A stretch of 64,000 nucleotides of DNA from Chitinophaga pendula (lineage in GTDB: Bacteria; Bacteroidota; Bacteroidia; Chitinophagales; Chitinophagaceae). The translations under genes were made by a program, and so were the position numbers. Position 1 is the stretch's first letter. Each line of letters begins with the position of its first letter. This document shows, piece by piece, positions 19,025 to 29,832 of the stretch. The stretch covers positions 6,993,501 to 7,057,500 of the forward strand of contig NZ_CP077769.1 in NCBI RefSeq assembly GCF_020386615.1, written 5' to 3'. The notes under the pieces are model-generated. The model was not told the DNA's origin. It saw only the letters and a list, made by a program, of their open reading frames with translations, and did no database searches.

Positions 19025-19892
19025 CAGAGGATTAAATAGTTAAATGTTGATTGGTGGCGGGTTTGCAAATATTGCTGCTCTATTTGCTATAAAGAGACAA
19101 ATAGTCTTGTAATAGCCTGATGGTGAATTGCTTATAGCTCGCGTCCACCTATCCTGTATCATTCGTATAGTTCTCCTATAAGCTACCTATATCCATACGT
19201 TAACTATCGCTTACTTGATAATTACAATACCCCCCATGTCTTATTCCTCTCCTCTTTACCCTCTCTCACAGGTCCCTCTCACAGGAACAGCCCTTAAACA
19301 TCCCTTACTTCCCCACAATTACTCCCTGCCCTGACTACGCCTCCTTACTTCCTTTTACCCTTCCTTAGTCCCTCCGCTCCCTCCCAACTCCTCCTCCTTT
19401 CCCCTCCTCTCCCTACAATCTAATGGCCCCCTCCTTGCCCCCGCTCCTTCCCAACCCCTCCTCTTCCTACAATCTAATGGCCCCCTCCTTGCCCCCGCTC
19501 CTTCCCAACCCCTCCTCTTCCTACAATCTAATGGCCCCCTCCTTGCCCCCGCTCCTTCCCAACCCCTCCTCTTCCTCCCGCACCCTCCCTGCCACAATTG
19601 TGTAAATCCTACACACCCGTGTTTTTTTTTATTTATTCGAATCATCTCTAAAAGAAGTATTTTTACTAAGAGCTGAATCGCTGATCAGAATAATTGTCGA
19701 CACAACAGAGTGAGCGTATTTCTTTGGATGGATTAGACTCCCCTTTTTATTAAATAGGTTACACATCCCTAACCCTCATACCTGAAAAGCTGGTCGCTTA
19801 ATAAGGTGGATTGCTAAAACATTTTAGCTACTGAAAGGGCAGGAGTGAACAATCAAAATCAACTGTAGCACTAAAACAGTATAGTAATACAA
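19025..19892. other. 868-bp intergenic region, C/T-rich with a minisatellite
   Basis: No gene is supported. From about 19220 to 19600 the plus strand is strongly C/T-rich; a 54-bp tandem repeat lies within it. After the repeat, a weak hairpin (TGTGTA/TACACA near 19600) precedes nine T at about 19622-19630 and may end the FecR transcript. The last 250 bp should contain the susC promoter; TTTATTTG near 19900 is a 7 of 8 match to the -7 box but overlaps the predicted start. Confidence 0.55.
19360..19592 (+). repeat. 54-bp pyrimidine-rich minisatellite, three full copies plus partial ends
   Basis: The marker CTACAATCTAATGG begins at 19413, 19467 and 19521, exactly 54 bp apart; the remainder of each unit is C/T-rich with tracts such as CCCCCGCTCCTTCCC. 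Degenerate partial copies lie on both sides. Because 54 is a multiple of three, the repeat is open in several frames (for example an MAPSLPPLLPNPSSSYNL repeat), but there is no other sign of coding. The complementary strand is G-rich and could form G-quadruplexes. Confidence 0.85.
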
Positions 19893-25061: not shown

Positions 25062-25943
25062 ATGTGGCATAAAAACGTCAGGACAGTTTGCAGCTATCTG
25101 CTCATAATAACAGCACTCGCCTGTGCAAAAGAAAAAGTACAGGTCTCCGAAAAAGAAAATACCTACTATAAAATACCACAGGGAAATGCCCCGTACGACC
25201 AGCAAGTAGTGGATTGGTACAACAAATACGGTACCTACGTACTATATCAATACCCTAAGTCAGAATACGAATATGCTATTATCGGCTACTACGGACTCAA
25301 TATGGAACACCCAGCCGATAAAACCGCATTGCCCGCCGTCATGAACTTTATCCAGCAATACTGGTTCGATTTCTATCCCGAGGACTTCCTCAAAAAATAC
25401 CTGCCTAGAAAAATACTCCTGGGCGGTATCCTGCAATACGACGCAGGAAATAATACCAAACCCGATACCCTGGCAAATCCCATAGCAGGATTCAACTTCA
25501 TCATGCTACCAGGACTGGATGCCAACTTCCCCAAACAATTAGAGAAAGAACGAAGAATCTGGAAAGCCAGCCTCAACTCACTGTTCTTCTCTACCCTCTT
25601 CTACGGCACCACCGAAGAGATAAAGGCAAAACTACCCCTCCCCGAAGCATTCTTCCAGGTCAGCAAATACCAACAACTTAAAGCCTCAGTAAACAACCTG
25701 TACGACAACGGATATCTCGCACCAGATCCCTCCGATCCCACCAAGATCCCCTCGCCAAAAAATGACCTGAAAAACTACTTGTACATCATGTGTCGATACT
25801 CAGAGGAAGAACTGGAAAAAAATTACTTCTCGGAAAAATTCGATAAAAAAGGACTGATCCGCAAAAAACATCAGCTACTGAGAAAGTATATCAAAGACAA
25901 CTGGAACGTCGACCTCCAGAATATCGGCAACAAACAAAACTAA
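25062..25943 (+). CDS. Substrate-import zinc metallohydrolase-like lipoprotein, active site lost
   Basis: 293 residues, 2 bp after susD, clearly in the same operon. Lipobox LACAK near residue 22. The position and several segments fit the lipoprotein family known as substrate import-associated zinc metallohydrolases (DxxxVxWYxxY start, VMNFIQQYW, FLKKYLPRKILLGG, LPLPEAFFQVS, and the closing RKKHQLLRKYIKDNWNVDLQNI). Members normally carry HExxH before the PxxFxxVS segment and a later Glu-Asp-Phe. Here the corresponding stretch reads SLNSLFFSTLFYG with no HExxH anywhere in the protein. I infer a non-catalytic descendant that may only bind substrate. The family link is from memory and should be tested by profile search. 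Confidence 0.7.
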   Translation: MWHKNVRTVCSYLLIITALACAKEKVQVSEKENTYYKIPQGNAPYDQQVVDWYNKYGTYVLYQYPKSEYEYAIIGYYGLNMEHPADKTALPAVMNFIQQYWFDFYPEDFLKKYLPRKILLGGILQYDAGNNTKPDTLANPIAGFNFIMLPGLDANFPKQLEKERRIWKASLNSLFFSTLFYGTTEEIKAKLPLPEAFFQVSKYQQLKASVNNLYDNGYLAPDPSDPTKIPSPKNDLKNYLYIMCRYSEEELEKNYFSEKFDKKGLIRKKHQLLRKYIKDNWNVDLQNIGNKQN

Positions 25944-25990: not shown

Positions 25991-26197
25991 TTAAATACCT
26001 TTACAAGTACCGATAATACCAAACTTATAATCACAATAACAGACAAAACCACCATCACCACAGGATGGCGCCCATACACTGCATGCTTTACCGGTATTAC
26101 AAACAGCCGCCGCCAACCGGCCGCCACCACCTTGGATGCCGCCCAGTGCCCGCCGGCCTAACGCTTCAAAAGATGAAAGAACAATCGTTTTTTTCAT
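25991..26197 (-). CDS. Six-cysteine peptide precursor B with glycine-rich leader
   Basis: 68 residues from ATG 26195-26197, preceded by a purine-poor leader. The N-terminal half (MKKTIVLSSFEALGRRALGG, then IQGGGG) resembles a double-glycine export leader with the pattern FExLxRxxL...GG. The core after the glycines has six Cys at 33, 39, 46, 53, 55 and 65 (segments CNTGKAC, APSCGDGGF, VCYCDY, GIIGTCKGI). Spacing and flanking residues match the upstream paralogue exactly. Known double-glycine leaders are cut by C39 peptidase ABC exporters; none is in the window. Function unknown: it could be a secreted disulfide-rich peptide, bacteriocin or modified (RiPP) peptide. Confidence 0.75.
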   Translation of the reverse strand: MKKTIVLSSFEALGRRALGGIQGGGGRLAAAVCNTGKACSVWAPSCGDGGFVCYCDYKFGIIGTCKGI

Positions 26198-26275
26198 AAC
26201 AAAAGGGAGGAAAATGAAACAAAAGGAATTACCACCATCACCGCCGGAACGGAATGATAACAGCATAAAAAAGAC

Positions 26276-26319
26276 GGAAAAAGAAAACAACCCGGTGCGA
26301 ATGTCAACCACACACCGGG
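26276..26319 (-). terminator. Terminator between the two six-cysteine peptide genes
   Basis: CCCGGTG (26291-26297) pairs with CACCGGG (26313-26319). On the minus strand the stem is followed by TTGTTTTCTTTTT. It lies 12 nt after the stop codon of peptide A, so each peptide probably has its own transcript. Confidence 0.7.
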
Positions 26320-26331
26320 CTATAAAACGGC

Positions 26332-26535
26332 TTATCTGCCCGTACACTTACCTACAATCCCATCACGGAACTGACAATAACAGGTAAACGTACTACCGCC
26401 ACACGCAGGCTCGTCGATCGTACAGATCGCACCGGTGTTACAGTTGGCCTGGCTTAAACTGGCGCCTCCGCCGTTAACATGACTGAGTACAGTACGTGAC
26501 AGTACTTCAAAGTTTTTCATCGATACGTGCTTCAT
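26332..26535 (-). CDS. Six-cysteine peptide precursor A with glycine-rich leader
   Basis: 67 residues (ATG at 26533-26535; Met6 at 26520 is an alternative start that gives MKNFEVLSRTVLSHVNGGG). The leader shows FEVLSRTVLSHVNGG and the core carries Cys at 32, 38, 45, 52, 54 and 64 (segments CNTGAIC, DEPACGGSTF, TCYCQF, GIVGKCTGR). The six-Cys spacing 6-7-7-2-10 is identical to peptide B, and both share CNTG, PxCG, FxCYC and GIxGxCxG. This conservation in two adjacent small genes is the main evidence that both are real. The downstream terminator supports an own transcript. No modifying enzyme or exporter gene is visible nearby. Confidence 0.78.
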   Translation of the reverse strand: MKHVSMKNFEVLSRTVLSHVNGGGASLSQANCNTGAICTIDEPACGGSTFTCYCQFRDGIVGKCTGR

Positions 26536-26897
26536 AGCAAGTGGAAATTTGGGTTATAAAAGAATAGTGAATAAAAGCGATCTGGTTTCCTTAAAATCAA
26601 CGTAATAACAGCTGTAAGACGGAATTACATGGTTCCCTAAAGTGTAATTGAATGTAAGAAATAATATGATCTCAACAAAAAGGAAATGACGAAATGATAA
26701 TATAATACATCATATCCTCATCCTACCAAATCCACCTACTCAAAAAAAAGTACATACGATTATCTGATTATGGTTAACAATTGGTTAACTTAACTGCTAA
26801 CTTGCATTGGCTAATTTGTTATTTCCGCATCGAAATAACCATATCCCGGACATGTGCAGTAGATAGTATTGCCATTCACCAGCCTCAAAATCCATTT
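26536..26897. other. Intergenic region between divergent peptide A and sensor kinase genes
   Basis: 362 bp, AT-rich, with no full TAnnTTTG box on either strand and no clear hairpin. It must contain promoters for both directions. Confidence 0.4.
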
Positions 26898-28634
26898 ATG
26901 ATGAAAGATACCCTAATGCGCCTGCTCAAAACAGGTACCCAAGGCTTAGAAGACGCAACGGAACGAAGATCAGTGGTTATTATCAATACCTTGACACTCA
27001 TAATGGTGGCAATGGTATTAGGCATAGGTCTATTCTTTTATTACCTGAAGAGCTCCCTGTTTATACTCATCCCCGTTATCCTGGAAGCCGTCAGCTTTTG
27101 CGCCGTATTCCTGCTCAATAGACGAAAACAATACTTCTACGCCAACGCTACCATGTTCGCCATCCACAGCGTAGCCACCATATACTGGGCCACCGCCCTG
27201 GGAACAGCCGTACCCGTAGAAGTCATCATGGCCTTCCTGTTCATGATCGTATTCCACATCTGGGGATCATTCCTCCTCTACAAACAAAGAAAACTACTCA
27301 TCGCCTGCCTCATCGCAGGTATCTTCGTTACCGTCGGCGTACAACTCAACTATCACTACAAAATCATCAAACCCCTCCAGCTTGATCCACAAGATGCCAA
27401 CATCATGCGCTGGTTCACCACCGGCGGTTTCCTGTTCCTCATCTTCCTTATCATGTTCTCCTACATCCGGAGAATAGAAATACTCCTCTCCGCCCTTAAA
27501 CACTCCAATAACGTACTGTCCGCCAAAAGCGCATTCCTCCGCGAAACCTGTCATGAACTACGTACCCCCCTCAACGGCGTATTCATGATCTCCCAACTAT
27601 TCCAACTCCGGAAAGAAAAATATATGAACTCCGACGAAATTGCCGAAATAGACGACCTCTACGCCGCCAGCTACACCGCACGCAATATCGTCAATAGTGT
27701 ACTCGACCTCTCTATCATAGAATCCGGCCGCTTCTATACCATCAAAAAAGAAGCACTCAACCTCCGCAGCTACGTCCAGCACTGCGCTACCATGAACAGC
27801 TACGTCGCCAACACCAGAGGTATCACCATCATGGTCGACTTCGATAAACGACTACCCGTACTGGTCAATAGCGATAAAATAGTACTGACCAAGATCATTA
27901 ATAACCTCCTCTCCAATGCCGTGAAATTCTCACAACCCGATAGCCAGGTCATGATCAAAGTACATGGCAACGACGAACATATCTTCTTCCAGGTCAAAAA
28001 CAAAGGCACCATCAGCCGGGAAAAAATAGATCGCGTATTCCTCCCCTTCGAAAGCGAAAGAAATAACTTCATAGAAGGCACCGGCCTCGGTCTCTATATT
28101 ACCAAACACCTCGTCGAACTACTGGAAGGCCGTATCATCGTCACCGCCGATGAAAAAGATAACAGCACCACCGTATCATTCAGTACACCACTCGAACTGG
28201 TCACAGAAAGTATATCCGAAACAGAACCCTTCGACTTCAAATCCGGACGCTTCTCCGGCGCACGCGTAGTCGTCGTCGAAGATGATAAAATGACCCGTAT
28301 CCTTCTTCGAAAATTCCTGACAAAAATGGGCATAGAACCCATCATGACAGAAAGCGTAGAAAATGGACTGGCCCTCATCATCGAAGAAAAACCAGACCTC
28401 GTTATCTCCGACCTGCATATGGAAAACTCAGGAGGTGAAGACCTCCTGATGCATATCCGTAACACGGCATCCATTAAGGATGTTCCCGTACTGATCATCT
28501 CCGGCGACGCATTCAAAGAAGCGCGCGAAGCCATCCTGCGGGCAGGTGCCAATGGATTCCTTACAAAACCATTGCTTTACAATGACCTGTATATCTCATT
28601 GAGCAAACTGATCCGTCATTTCGAAGTCTTTTAA
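26898..28634 (+). CDS. Hybrid sensor histidine kinase with C-terminal receiver domain
   Basis: 578 residues from ATG 26898 (MMKDTLMRLL); the open frame goes further upstream but without coding character. Six or so transmembrane helices (about 35-195) form a membrane sensor with no large periplasmic domain. HisKA follows, with the phosphorylated His in FLRETCHELRTPLNG (about 219); the ATPase domain has NNLLSNAVKFS (N box, about 334) and GTGLGLYI (G box, about 394). The receiver has the acidic pair in VVEDDKMTR (about 459), the phospho-Asp in ISDLHM (about 503) and Lys in LTKPL (about 554). No output regulator is adjacent. It is divergent from the peptide genes and converges with the terpene synthase gene 6 bp away. 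Confidence 0.93.
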   Translation: MMKDTLMRLLKTGTQGLEDATERRSVVIINTLTLIMVAMVLGIGLFFYYLKSSLFILIPVILEAVSFCAVFLLNRRKQYFYANATMFAIHSVATIYWATALGTAVPVEVIMAFLFMIVFHIWGSFLLYKQRKLLIACLIAGIFVTVGVQLNYHYKIIKPLQLDPQDANIMRWFTTGGFLFLIFLIMFSYIRRIEILLSALKHSNNVLSAKSAFLRETCHELRTPLNGVFMISQLFQLRKEKYMNSDEIAEIDDLYAASYTARNIVNSVLDLSIIESGRFYTIKKEALNLRSYVQHCATMNSYVANTRGITIMVDFDKRLPVLVNSDKIVLTKIINNLLSNAVKFSQPDSQVMIKVHGNDEHIFFQVKNKGTISREKIDRVFLPFESERNNFIEGTGLGLYITKHLVELLEGRIIVTADEKDNSTTVSFSTPLELVTESISETEPFDFKSGRFSGARVVVVEDDKMTRILLRKFLTKMGIEPIMTESVENGLALIIEEKPDLVISDLHMENSGGEDLLMHIRNTASIKDVPVLIISGDAFKEAREAILRAGANGFLTKPLLYNDLYISLSKLIRHFEVF

Positions 28635-28640
28635 TACAAC

Positions 28641-29576
28641 CTAAGCATAACGATTACTGTCAAGCGCCCAATCATAATAGGCCTTCAATACCACAAAAAG
28701 CCCGTCTACATAAGTGTTCAACTGCTCGTTGATACGTTTGCCCCAATAAGGCAGCTGACGACGGCATTGCTCCAACAATGACAACTGGTCATTGTGATGA
28801 TCCATCAGCAACTGTACCGCCTCTTCCTGCGATACCTGCAACTCCTGCTGGAAAATGAAGATCAGGTTGAAACCCGCCGTATCCAGCTGCTGCTCCCGGT
28901 GCAACGAATGAATGTCGTTGGCCAACCCGCCCGCCAGGTTCAATGCCAATTCCATACGTTGCAACACCTCGTGCTTGTACACCTCGTCCGGCAACTCCAG
29001 CTTACTGAAAATTCCTACCAGCGGAAACATAATGCTGAAGCCCGTCTTAGCTCGCATCGCCCAGTACTCCGCAATCGTCGGCACATAGTCCTTCACCTGG
29101 TTGTCTATCTCCCAAAAACATTCATTCAGATACACCCGGATGTAATGACATAACTGCTCATACAAATACAGTGAACTGATCGCCGCAAAACGCTGCATCA
29201 CATGCTGCAACCCCCTGTTCATCGGCGTGTCCGCATCCACCGGTCGCCCATCAAGGATGTCCAGGAAATCACGCAGCTGCACCCGCACAGTCGCCGCCGC
29301 CGCCCGGTCAGAAGATGCCCGGTCACACCGGTCATCCACAAAAAATAACCATGTGATCAGATCCGCCGTCAGACAGATCTCCGCACAACTCGCCCCGGGA
29401 AACTCCCGGGCCGCATAAATACCAAATTTAGCCTTCCGCAAACCATTCACATGTTTGGGATCAGGCACCAGGCCGAAGTCGATCGCCCAGTTAATAGTGT
29501 GTTCTTGAGCTGCTTCAGCATATGGACTGATAGCAGACGGCGCTGGAAATTCCAGGCAGTACTCGGTCTTTCTCAT
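28641..29576 (-). CDS. Class I terpene synthase
   Basis: 311 residues from ATG 29574-29576 (MRKTEYCLEFP); a TTG eight codons upstream also fits the frame. It cyclises a prenyl diphosphate to a terpene in the cytosol. The first metal motif is DDRCD at 81-85 (FFVDDRCDR) and the second is NDIHSLHRE at about 219-227, matching the NSE/DTE triad ND(L/I)xSxxxE. A late Arg-Tyr pair (NRYA) ends the protein, as in bacterial sesqui- and diterpene cyclases. Length is typical. No prenyltransferase or P450 is adjacent, so the product and chain length cannot be told. Confidence 0.93.
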   Translation of the reverse strand: MRKTEYCLEFPAPSAISPYAEAAQEHTINWAIDFGLVPDPKHVNGLRKAKFGIYAAREFPGASCAEICLTADLITWLFFVDDRCDRASSDRAAAATVRVQLRDFLDILDGRPVDADTPMNRGLQHVMQRFAAISSLYLYEQLCHYIRVYLNECFWEIDNQVKDYVPTIAEYWAMRAKTGFSIMFPLVGIFSKLELPDEVYKHEVLQRMELALNLAGGLANDIHSLHREQQLDTAGFNLIFIFQQELQVSQEEAVQLLMDHHNDQLSLLEQCRRQLPYWGKRINEQLNTYVDGLFVVLKAYYDWALDSNRYA

Positions 29577-29832
29577 AATAAAGGATTGAAGTTTTAGCAA
29601 TATCTCAATACAATGATGGTCCTGTTAGTTTGCATTCTTCAGAAATAGTGACAGCAGGGTAACCTACCAGAAATTAGGGTATCAAGATGAGATATTATGA
29701 CAGTACGCATATCACCAATTCGTGTAATGCAGTCCGGTACAGCGTCCGCAAATAACCCGCCGGTATAGCTACAGTGCCGGAAAATGGCAGCGAACACATT
29801 TATTTACAACAGGTTAAAAATCAAATGAGCTT
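29577..29832. other. Intergenic region before the second import locus
   Basis: About 260 bp containing the terpene synthase promoter on the minus strand. No gene, repeat or full promoter consensus recognised. Confidence 0.4.

Follow-up and report, generated by a model that had tools for sequence, protein, structure and literature searches.

Double-glycine-leader, six-cysteine precursors of Chitinophaga pendula and their candidate exporter and disulfide oxidase

Two small cysteine-rich precursors encoded in a 64-kb stretch of the Chitinophaga pendula chromosome (called the window when the whole stretch is meant) are, judging from their sequences, members of a family with 88 detected representatives in the same genome rather than an isolated pair. 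The family is probably a library of leader-guided, exported, disulfide-rich mini-proteins oxidized by a VKOR-type enzyme, with the window pair being served in trans. This reading is built on the family itself, its leader, the cysteine frameworks, the linkage between genes and the intact cysteines of the predicted oxidase. From these features we infer leader cleavage, export, disulfide formation, the fold and service in trans, and any statement about targets is a guess.

The precursor pair and its relatives

A sequence-only reading of the window had described two adjacent minus-strand genes for paralogous peptides, and both were recovered (Table 1) together with the features ascribed to them. 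The leaders contain FEALGRRAL...GG and FEVLSRTVL...GG, the motifs CNTG, P.CG, F.CYC and GI.G.C.G occur in both peptides, and the six cysteines are placed identically, with Cys-to-Cys steps of 6, 7, 7, 2 and 10. The two proteins are 43% identical, and one retrieves the other in a genome search at E 1.4e-15. When the window was scanned for open reading frames (ORFs) with a Met start, 11-40 residues, a hydrophobic-x-x-hydrophobic-x-GG/GA motif and a core of 20-90 residues carrying at least four Cys, exactly these two genes were returned, and the reversed window gave none. The first ATG is the likely start of precursor 1, because a 91% identical relative from another assembly (P0012) carries Leu at the second possible start. 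For precursor 2, which has a relative in another assembly (P0009) listed at 81% identity, we placed the start at the ATG of 26197, whereas the mechanical ORF list begins the frame at a GTG (26347). Searches of NCBIfam and Pfam gave no name to the cores of the pair.

Table 1. Features of the precursor locus and RNA motif sites (window positions, except where a locus is named)
Feature	Position	Strand	Remarks
Precursor peptide gene 1, 67 aa	26332..26535	-	leader MKHVSMKNFEVLSRTVLSHVNGGG; six-Cys core of 43 residues (loops 5-6-6-1-9)
Precursor peptide gene 2, 68 aa	25991..26197	-	leader MKKTIVLSSFEALGRRALGGIQGGG; six-Cys core of 43 residues (loops 5-6-6-1-9)
Double-glycine leader of precursor 1	26464..26535	-	basis: family leader consensus, 64 members
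Six-Cys core of precursor 1, from 3 residues before first Cys	26335..26451	-	alignment A11
Six-Cys core of precursor 2, from 3 residues before first Cys	25994..26110	-	alignment A11
Divergent hybrid histidine kinase (HisKA, HATPase_c, response regulator)	26781..28634	+	judged not part of the system
DUF805b RNA site	L067:5078-5114	-	
DUF805b RNA site	L067:18402-18438	+	
DUF805b RNA site	L070:4261-4297	+	
DUF805b RNA site	L079:14908-14944	+	

The source genome is a single contig of 7,663,439 bases. A single window peptide used as query finds six further places in this genome and none in the other 78 genomes of the genus (1 of 79). A profile of 20 sequences (A1) locates at least 85 places in the genome at E <=0.1 and 78 at E <=0.001, with 150 of 249 candidates scored, and iterated searching of fetched regions yielded 114 members, of which 88 are from C. 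pendula and 26 from a genome (G030) that is evidently Chitinophaga nivalis. The C. pendula members fall into 43 places separated by more than 10 kb, and at 24 of these there is a single gene. Exactly six cysteines are present in 104 of the 114 members and in 81 of the 88.

The earlier suggestion that the pair could represent a new family of secreted disulfide-rich or modified peptides can thus be upheld in part. The pair sits in an 88-member family with double-glycine leaders and six cysteines, and comparative genomics points to C39-dependent export and disulfide-rich products, but the pattern is narrow. At E 0.001, profile A1 matches 9 of 79 genus genomes including the source, so the pattern is not confined to one genome, and seven of these nine have only 1-3 matches. 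An 82-member profile (A2) at 1e-4 matches 16 of 394 genomes of the taxonomic family including C. pendula, where up to 16 candidates were scored in each genome. A search of 5.8 billion proteins that relied on shared short words gave 10, 6 and 7 matches for three profiles, several of them from the source genome. The expansion looks narrow and lineage-specific.

At least some members look individually maintained, judging from eight members compared with their nearest relatives in other assemblies. Among these pairs, 248 of 293 non-Cys core residues, all 48 core cysteines and 139 of 172 leader residues are kept; the pairs were picked by similarity search alone, which favors conserved members, and four further proteins of other assemblies (P0015, P0016, P0017 and P0021) were left out. 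A few members look broken or misread. A copy of the L096 member in a sister record (P0017) is out of frame after the first Cys, the L080 member in C. pendula is a 38-residue fragment without a start, and a few profile matches contain internal stops, all of which may reflect decay or sequencing errors. Another departure from the usual form is seen in C. nivalis (L104:4506-5309), in which two adjacent, very similar precursors of ~100 residues each carry long Pro/Thr/Ser-rich inserts before the last Cys and lie ~100 bp from a VKOR fusion gene.

Conserved leaders and diverse cysteine frameworks

Across 64 members, the leader consensus counted from the end of the double glycine is F(-15) L(-12) R(-10) L/M(-7) I/V(-4) GG, with Arg at -10 in 63 of the 64, and the pattern R..[LM]..[IVLAF].G[GAT] is present in 83 of the 88 C. 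pendula members. The consensus is of a type that C39 peptidases recognize. Hydrophobic residues at positions -4 and -15 before Gly-Gly are a feature of C39 leaders. One published study assigns leader recognition to Leu-12 and Leu-7 before the double glycine (PMC6363468). Among the same 64 members, pairwise identity is 28% for the leaders and 10% for the non-Cys core loops (584 comparable core pairs), with 7% expected from composition alone. An alignment of 31 cores (A11) has six invariant cysteines and no other column conserved at 90% or more, which means that no Ser or Thr position is fixed.

The commonest cysteine order, C-C-C-CxC-C, is found in 88 of the 114 members. Nine others end in CxC, five contain CC, two have other six-Cys forms and the remaining 10 have four, five, seven or eight cysteines. 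Only 37 of the 88 C-C-C-CxC-C cores fall within the loop ranges that we set ourselves for squash knottins, and the window pair has this order with the short loops (Table 1) of squash-type knottins. All nine members with a terminal CxC, from a total of 104 six-Cys members, also carry CxxxC at loop 2. This combination, known from CS-alpha-beta peptides, is absent from the window pair.

Against the PDB, a profile of 31 of the 37 compact cores matched MCh-1 best (E 0.004), followed by MCh-2 (0.018) and MCoTI-II (0.52), and six further matches at E >=1.6 were a mixture of knottins (another two from plants), scorpion toxins (two), a phospholipase and reelin. The reversed profile found no knottin and gave two unrelated matches (best E 0.059). 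In another profile search, MCoCC-1 and MCh-1 ranked second and third. A profile of eight CxxxC/CxC members produced 159 matches (best E 1.2e-5) and none when reversed; the best 60 of the 159 consist of defensins, thionins or venom toxins, together with designed proteins of this kind. One C. nivalis member exceeds the Pfam cut-off for arthropod defensins (21.8 versus 20.4) and is named in UniRef by an invertebrate-defensin profile. The five CC members had no significant match in the PDB. These similarities are in cysteine order and spacing, and the knottin E-values are marginal. AlphaFold models lend a knottin fold no support; they are uninformative, with a mean pLDDT of 43 (full precursor) and 47 (core).

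Knottins pair their cysteines I-IV, II-V and III-VI. The family cores share the cysteine order and similar loop sizes of the squash-type knottins MCh-1, MCh-2, MCoTI-II and MCoCC-1 (PDB 2m2q, 2m2r, 2po8 and 2knp), a likeness of cysteine framework only, known from sequence, and they differ from these plant peptides by a bacterial double-glycine leader and a C39 exporter. The CS-alpha-beta peptides (arthropod and plant defensins and short scorpion toxins) resemble the nine CxxxC/CxC members and not the window pair, and they likewise differ from the family in its double-glycine leader; convergence and descent would look alike here.

An alternative is that the peptides are classical double-glycine bacteriocins, short pore-forming or receptor-binding antibacterials that each have their own immunity protein and whose cysteines would serve only for stability. 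This explanation is unlikely in our judgment, although it is a genuine contender. The Pfam Bacteriocin_IIc profile matches one window peptide at E 0.00015, which is below its cut-off, and the pair falls short of every cut-off compared. Of 82 members, seven match ComC and two Bacteriocin_IIc at E 0.01, with one ComC match above cut-off (L015:8650-8826, 31.3 bits), and UniRef names one C. nivalis member 'Bacteriocin'. Such matches fall mainly on the leader, however, and the commonest cysteine order is that of knottins. Moreover, there is no room for immunity genes either within the largest array, in which nine genes are separated by gaps of 26-181 bp, or in the 134 bp between the window genes. 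This lack of space is weak evidence against ordinary bacteriocins, and our guess is that it also points to targets beyond the producer's own kin.

Small proteins that bind metals or buffer redox state might also be rich in cysteine, and one of 82 members weakly matches the Pfam metallothionein profile (E 0.0026). This possibility seems hardly credible, since an export leader, linkage to an oxidase, a mostly even number of cysteines and hypervariable loops would fit such a function poorly.

A candidate exporter and oxidase encoded elsewhere

No modifying enzyme or exporter had been noticed in the window, and it was suggested that a C39 ABC transporter and an HlyD gene be sought in the rest of the genome. 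An exporter is indeed absent from the window, as is a disulfide-forming enzyme, and both of the genes sought were found beside nine family members, along with a candidate enzyme for forming disulfides. There are seven C39 matches in the C. pendula genome. At one of them (L015, 4.21 Mb), a C39 peptidase-ABC exporter gene and a short HlyD piece adjoin the nine-gene array. On the far side of the array lies a gene for a 548-residue fusion of C39-like, VKOR and Thioredoxin_4 domains, which holds the genome's single VKOR match. Another exporter, likewise accompanied by a short HlyD (L097, 0.57 Mb), has no family genes within 15 kb. Four other C39 loci (L098, L099, L100 and L101, at ~3.08, 3.44, 4.38 and 5.06 Mb) have as neighbors a split lantibiotic dehydratase, a LANC-like protein with a glycosyltransferase, a DUF4135-LANC_like protein and a radical SAM protein.

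The fusion shares its VKOR and Thioredoxin_4 domains and its redox cysteines with the VKOR-thioredoxin disulfide oxidases, which we take to be the proper class for comparison. Cys 218, 226, 297, 300, 411, 415 and 418 are invariant across 13 fusions. The protein is unlike these oxidases in having an extra N-terminal C39-like domain and in being encoded with double-glycine-leader peptides. The similarity of this domain to Peptidase_C39 (E 5e-13) begins at profile position 18, and there is a weak match to the start of HlyB-type exporters. The domain has no cysteine that is invariant across the 13 fusions; at the position of residue 15, four of the 13 rows have Cys, eight have another residue and one has a gap. 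We read this domain as one that may bind leaders or the exporter rather than act as a peptidase. The match of the HlyD piece at L015 is confined to positions 314-405 of an HlyD model 422 residues long. A protein so short may fail to span the distance to the outer membrane, leaving room for a periplasmic stage of oxidation.

On the reading we prefer, in which the precursors are exported and oxidized, the conserved double-glycine leader would guide every precursor to a C39 peptidase-ABC exporter for cleavage behind the glycines and export of the core. In the periplasm, the dedicated oxidase, with its degenerate C39-like, VKOR and thioredoxin domains in one chain, would form three disulfides to give a compact, stable six-Cys mini-protein, with squash-type knottin cysteine order in the window pair and most other members. 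One machine encoded at 4.21 Mb (exporter, short HlyD adaptor and oxidase) would serve precursors from across the chromosome in trans, perhaps helped by the second exporter at 0.57 Mb. The leader would have been kept while the cores diversified, and each core presumably meets a different external target. An arsenal of inhibitors or toxins directed at competing microbes or their enzymes is our guess as to the likeliest use. The linkage to a C39 exporter holds for the family (at L015 and also at L119) and not for the window pair, which lies 2.8 Mb from the L015 exporter and oxidase; given this distance, service of the pair in trans can only be presumed.

Other genomes provide additional evidence for a link between peptide and oxidase. 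The fusion is present in 39 of 79 genus genomes, including all nine with an A1 match (hypergeometric 0.001, uncorrected for kinship); 30 of the 79 have the fusion and no A1 match, and 40 lack it. In five of the eight other genus genomes with peptide matches (G014, G025, G026, G028 and G030), a peptide match and a fusion match are no more than 200 bp apart, and in the other three the peptide match is distant or on another contig. Of 15 other genomes of the taxonomic family with an A2 match, 12 are among the 41 of 294 with a fusion, although the two genome draws differ.

A wider sample was taken from named records, in which a search with 13 fusions (one with two fusions found none) was followed up for the best 80 of 275 loci, 79 of them distinct. 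These loci span Chitinophaga, Mucilaginibacter, Sediminibacterium, Pedobacter, Dyadobacter, Hoylesella and other Bacteroidota. A double-glycine-leader ORF with at least four Cys is present at 56 of the 79 loci versus 2 of 79 in reversed DNA, with none at the other 23, and profile A2 matches 18 of the 79 at 1e-4. Among 87 such ORFs, 56 have six cysteines in several frameworks, only eight of them C-C-C-CxC-C. An ORF with a C39 motif occurs at 53 of the 79 loci, some of which end at contig ends. Several Bacteroidota loci (L196, L203, L225, L245 and L272) carry double-glycine-leader six-Cys ORFs of other frameworks, including C-C-CC-C-C examples in records of Chitinophaga varians, C. fulva and Algoriphagus aquimarinus.

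A different fate for the cysteines would be modification in trans by lanthipeptide or radical SAM enzymes, making the precursors RiPPs with thioether, lanthionine or sactipeptide linkages and no disulfides. Proteins with Lant_dehydr_N and Lant_dehydr_C, DUF4135-LANC_like, LANC_like and radical SAM domains are indeed encoded beside other C39 genes, which could act on some members, and the profile TIGR04149 for rSAM-modified RiPPs weakly matches 3 of 82 members (best E 0.00083). We nonetheless consider this explanation improbable. The largest array adjoins the VKOR-thioredoxin oxidase and fusion loci elsewhere carry such peptides, whereas the five other C39 regions, of 15 kb each, yielded no member of the family. 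A Pfam scan detected no modifying enzyme among six window genes near the pair or three genes at the array, and the 31 aligned cores have no fixed Ser or Thr.

A stronger form of the preferred reading can be put forward tentatively, at somewhat less than an even chance. The ~90 dispersed genes, whose secreted mini-proteins would share a single type of leader and span three or more disulfide frameworks, might form a venom-like combinatorial arsenal that is handled in trans by one exporter and a leader-reading VKOR oxidase, as a module that recurs across Bacteroidota. The squash knottin, CS-alpha-beta and C-C-CC-C-C frameworks are otherwise typical of plants and animals.

Parts of this picture are of kinds already known, namely 'bacteriocin-like' peptides with double-glycine leaders and VKOR-thioredoxin oxidases. 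The NCBIfam family NF047798 (Bacteroidota double-glycine-leader 'bacteriocin-like protein') weakly matches 12 of 82 members (best E 0.00033), and one window peptide matches the CCPGW family NF047792 (E 0.0014, score 18.5 versus a cut-off of 80). We know of no oxidase link for either family. Multi-precursor RiPP systems such as LahA/LahT and ProcA, in which one tolerant C39 enzyme processes many substrates, likewise have divergent cores behind a conserved double-glycine leader; the C. pendula family has a linked oxidase instead. LahT150 is reported to cleave diverse leaders, and the LahA and ProcA peptides are RiPP precursors with Nif11-type leaders (PMC6363468). A search of open-licence literature found no papers on double-glycine-leader knottins, bacterial knottins or C39-VKOR fusions, which is weak evidence of absence. 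As far as that search goes, three things appear to be new, namely the size of the family, the combination of plant- and animal-like frameworks under a common type of leader, and the association with a C39-like/VKOR/thioredoxin fusion.

Knottin- and defensin-like mini-proteins are valued for their stability and tight binding and are known mainly from plants and animals. If the proposal is correct, bacteria hold large leader-directed libraries of such molecules, and a single genome would offer, for joint study, ~90 natural scaffolds, a C39 exporter of broad tolerance and an oxidase dedicated to disulfide formation. The Bacteroidota C39-like/VKOR/thioredoxin fusions would also gain a testable role, and the family would illustrate how cores can diversify strongly behind a leader that is conserved.

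The divergent kinase, candidate control elements and neighboring genes

The divergently encoded sensor kinase had been suggested as a possible partner of the pair, a proposal that finds no support. If the peptides were ligands of this hybrid histidine kinase, the divergent arrangement of the genes and the resemblance of some leaders to ComC competence pheromones would be readily explained. This signaling role is nevertheless very improbable, since relatives of the kinase are common in genomes that lack the peptides. At E <=1e-100, they are found in 38 of 79 genus genomes including the source (the best others being 47-48% identical), compared with window peptide matches in 1 of 79. Among 20 kinase loci inspected with ~1.5 kb of flank each, such peptides occur at the window locus only (1 of 20); one further ORF satisfying the leader and cysteine rule, in L289, looks spurious. 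Among the neighbors listed for other members, which were surveyed by eye, such kinases are no regular companion.

None of the 88 regions upstream of family genes contains the Bacteroidota promoter consensus TTG-N17-23-TAnnTTTG, which occurs in 2 of the 88 downstream regions, and a shared promoter of this type was rejected. Spread of the family on one repeated mobile element was also rejected. Dispersed members with 1-kb flanks gave 27 alignments of at least 40 bp, of which 13 come from the related region pair L096/L105, 7 from L065-L091 and 4 from one RNA motif, and no common carrier is seen among them. A match to the DUF805b RNA motif (RF02914) lies just upstream of four six-Cys precursor genes (Table 1), with one of the four above the Rfam gathering score. 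The genome has at least 15 matches to this motif at E 0.1, five of which exceed the gathering score (150 of 2542 candidates scored), and 7 of 14 control genomes showed weak matches, all of which fell short of that score. With sites at 4 of 88 genes, this RNA was dismissed as a general regulator of the family, and it may control part of it. No paper on DUF805b was found within the open-licence literature. A weak AACCCAA element is present in 10 upstream and 2 downstream regions, and 8 of the 10 sit 15-28 bp before the start.

Other genes near the pair were recorded as well. A terpene synthase gene lies beside the kinase (28641-29600, minus strand; Terpene_syn_C_2, E 1.2e-36), and a gene for a putative zinc metallopeptidase (25062-25943, plus strand; Peptidase_Mx1, E 2.5e-14) converges on the pair. 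Upstream of the latter are a SusD-family gene and a SusC-like ORF, the second recognized by eye. Farther away, an entry in the ORF list at 19355-19645 reads by eye as a repeated RKRRGWEGAGARRGPLDC unit and is possibly an intergenic tandem repeat.
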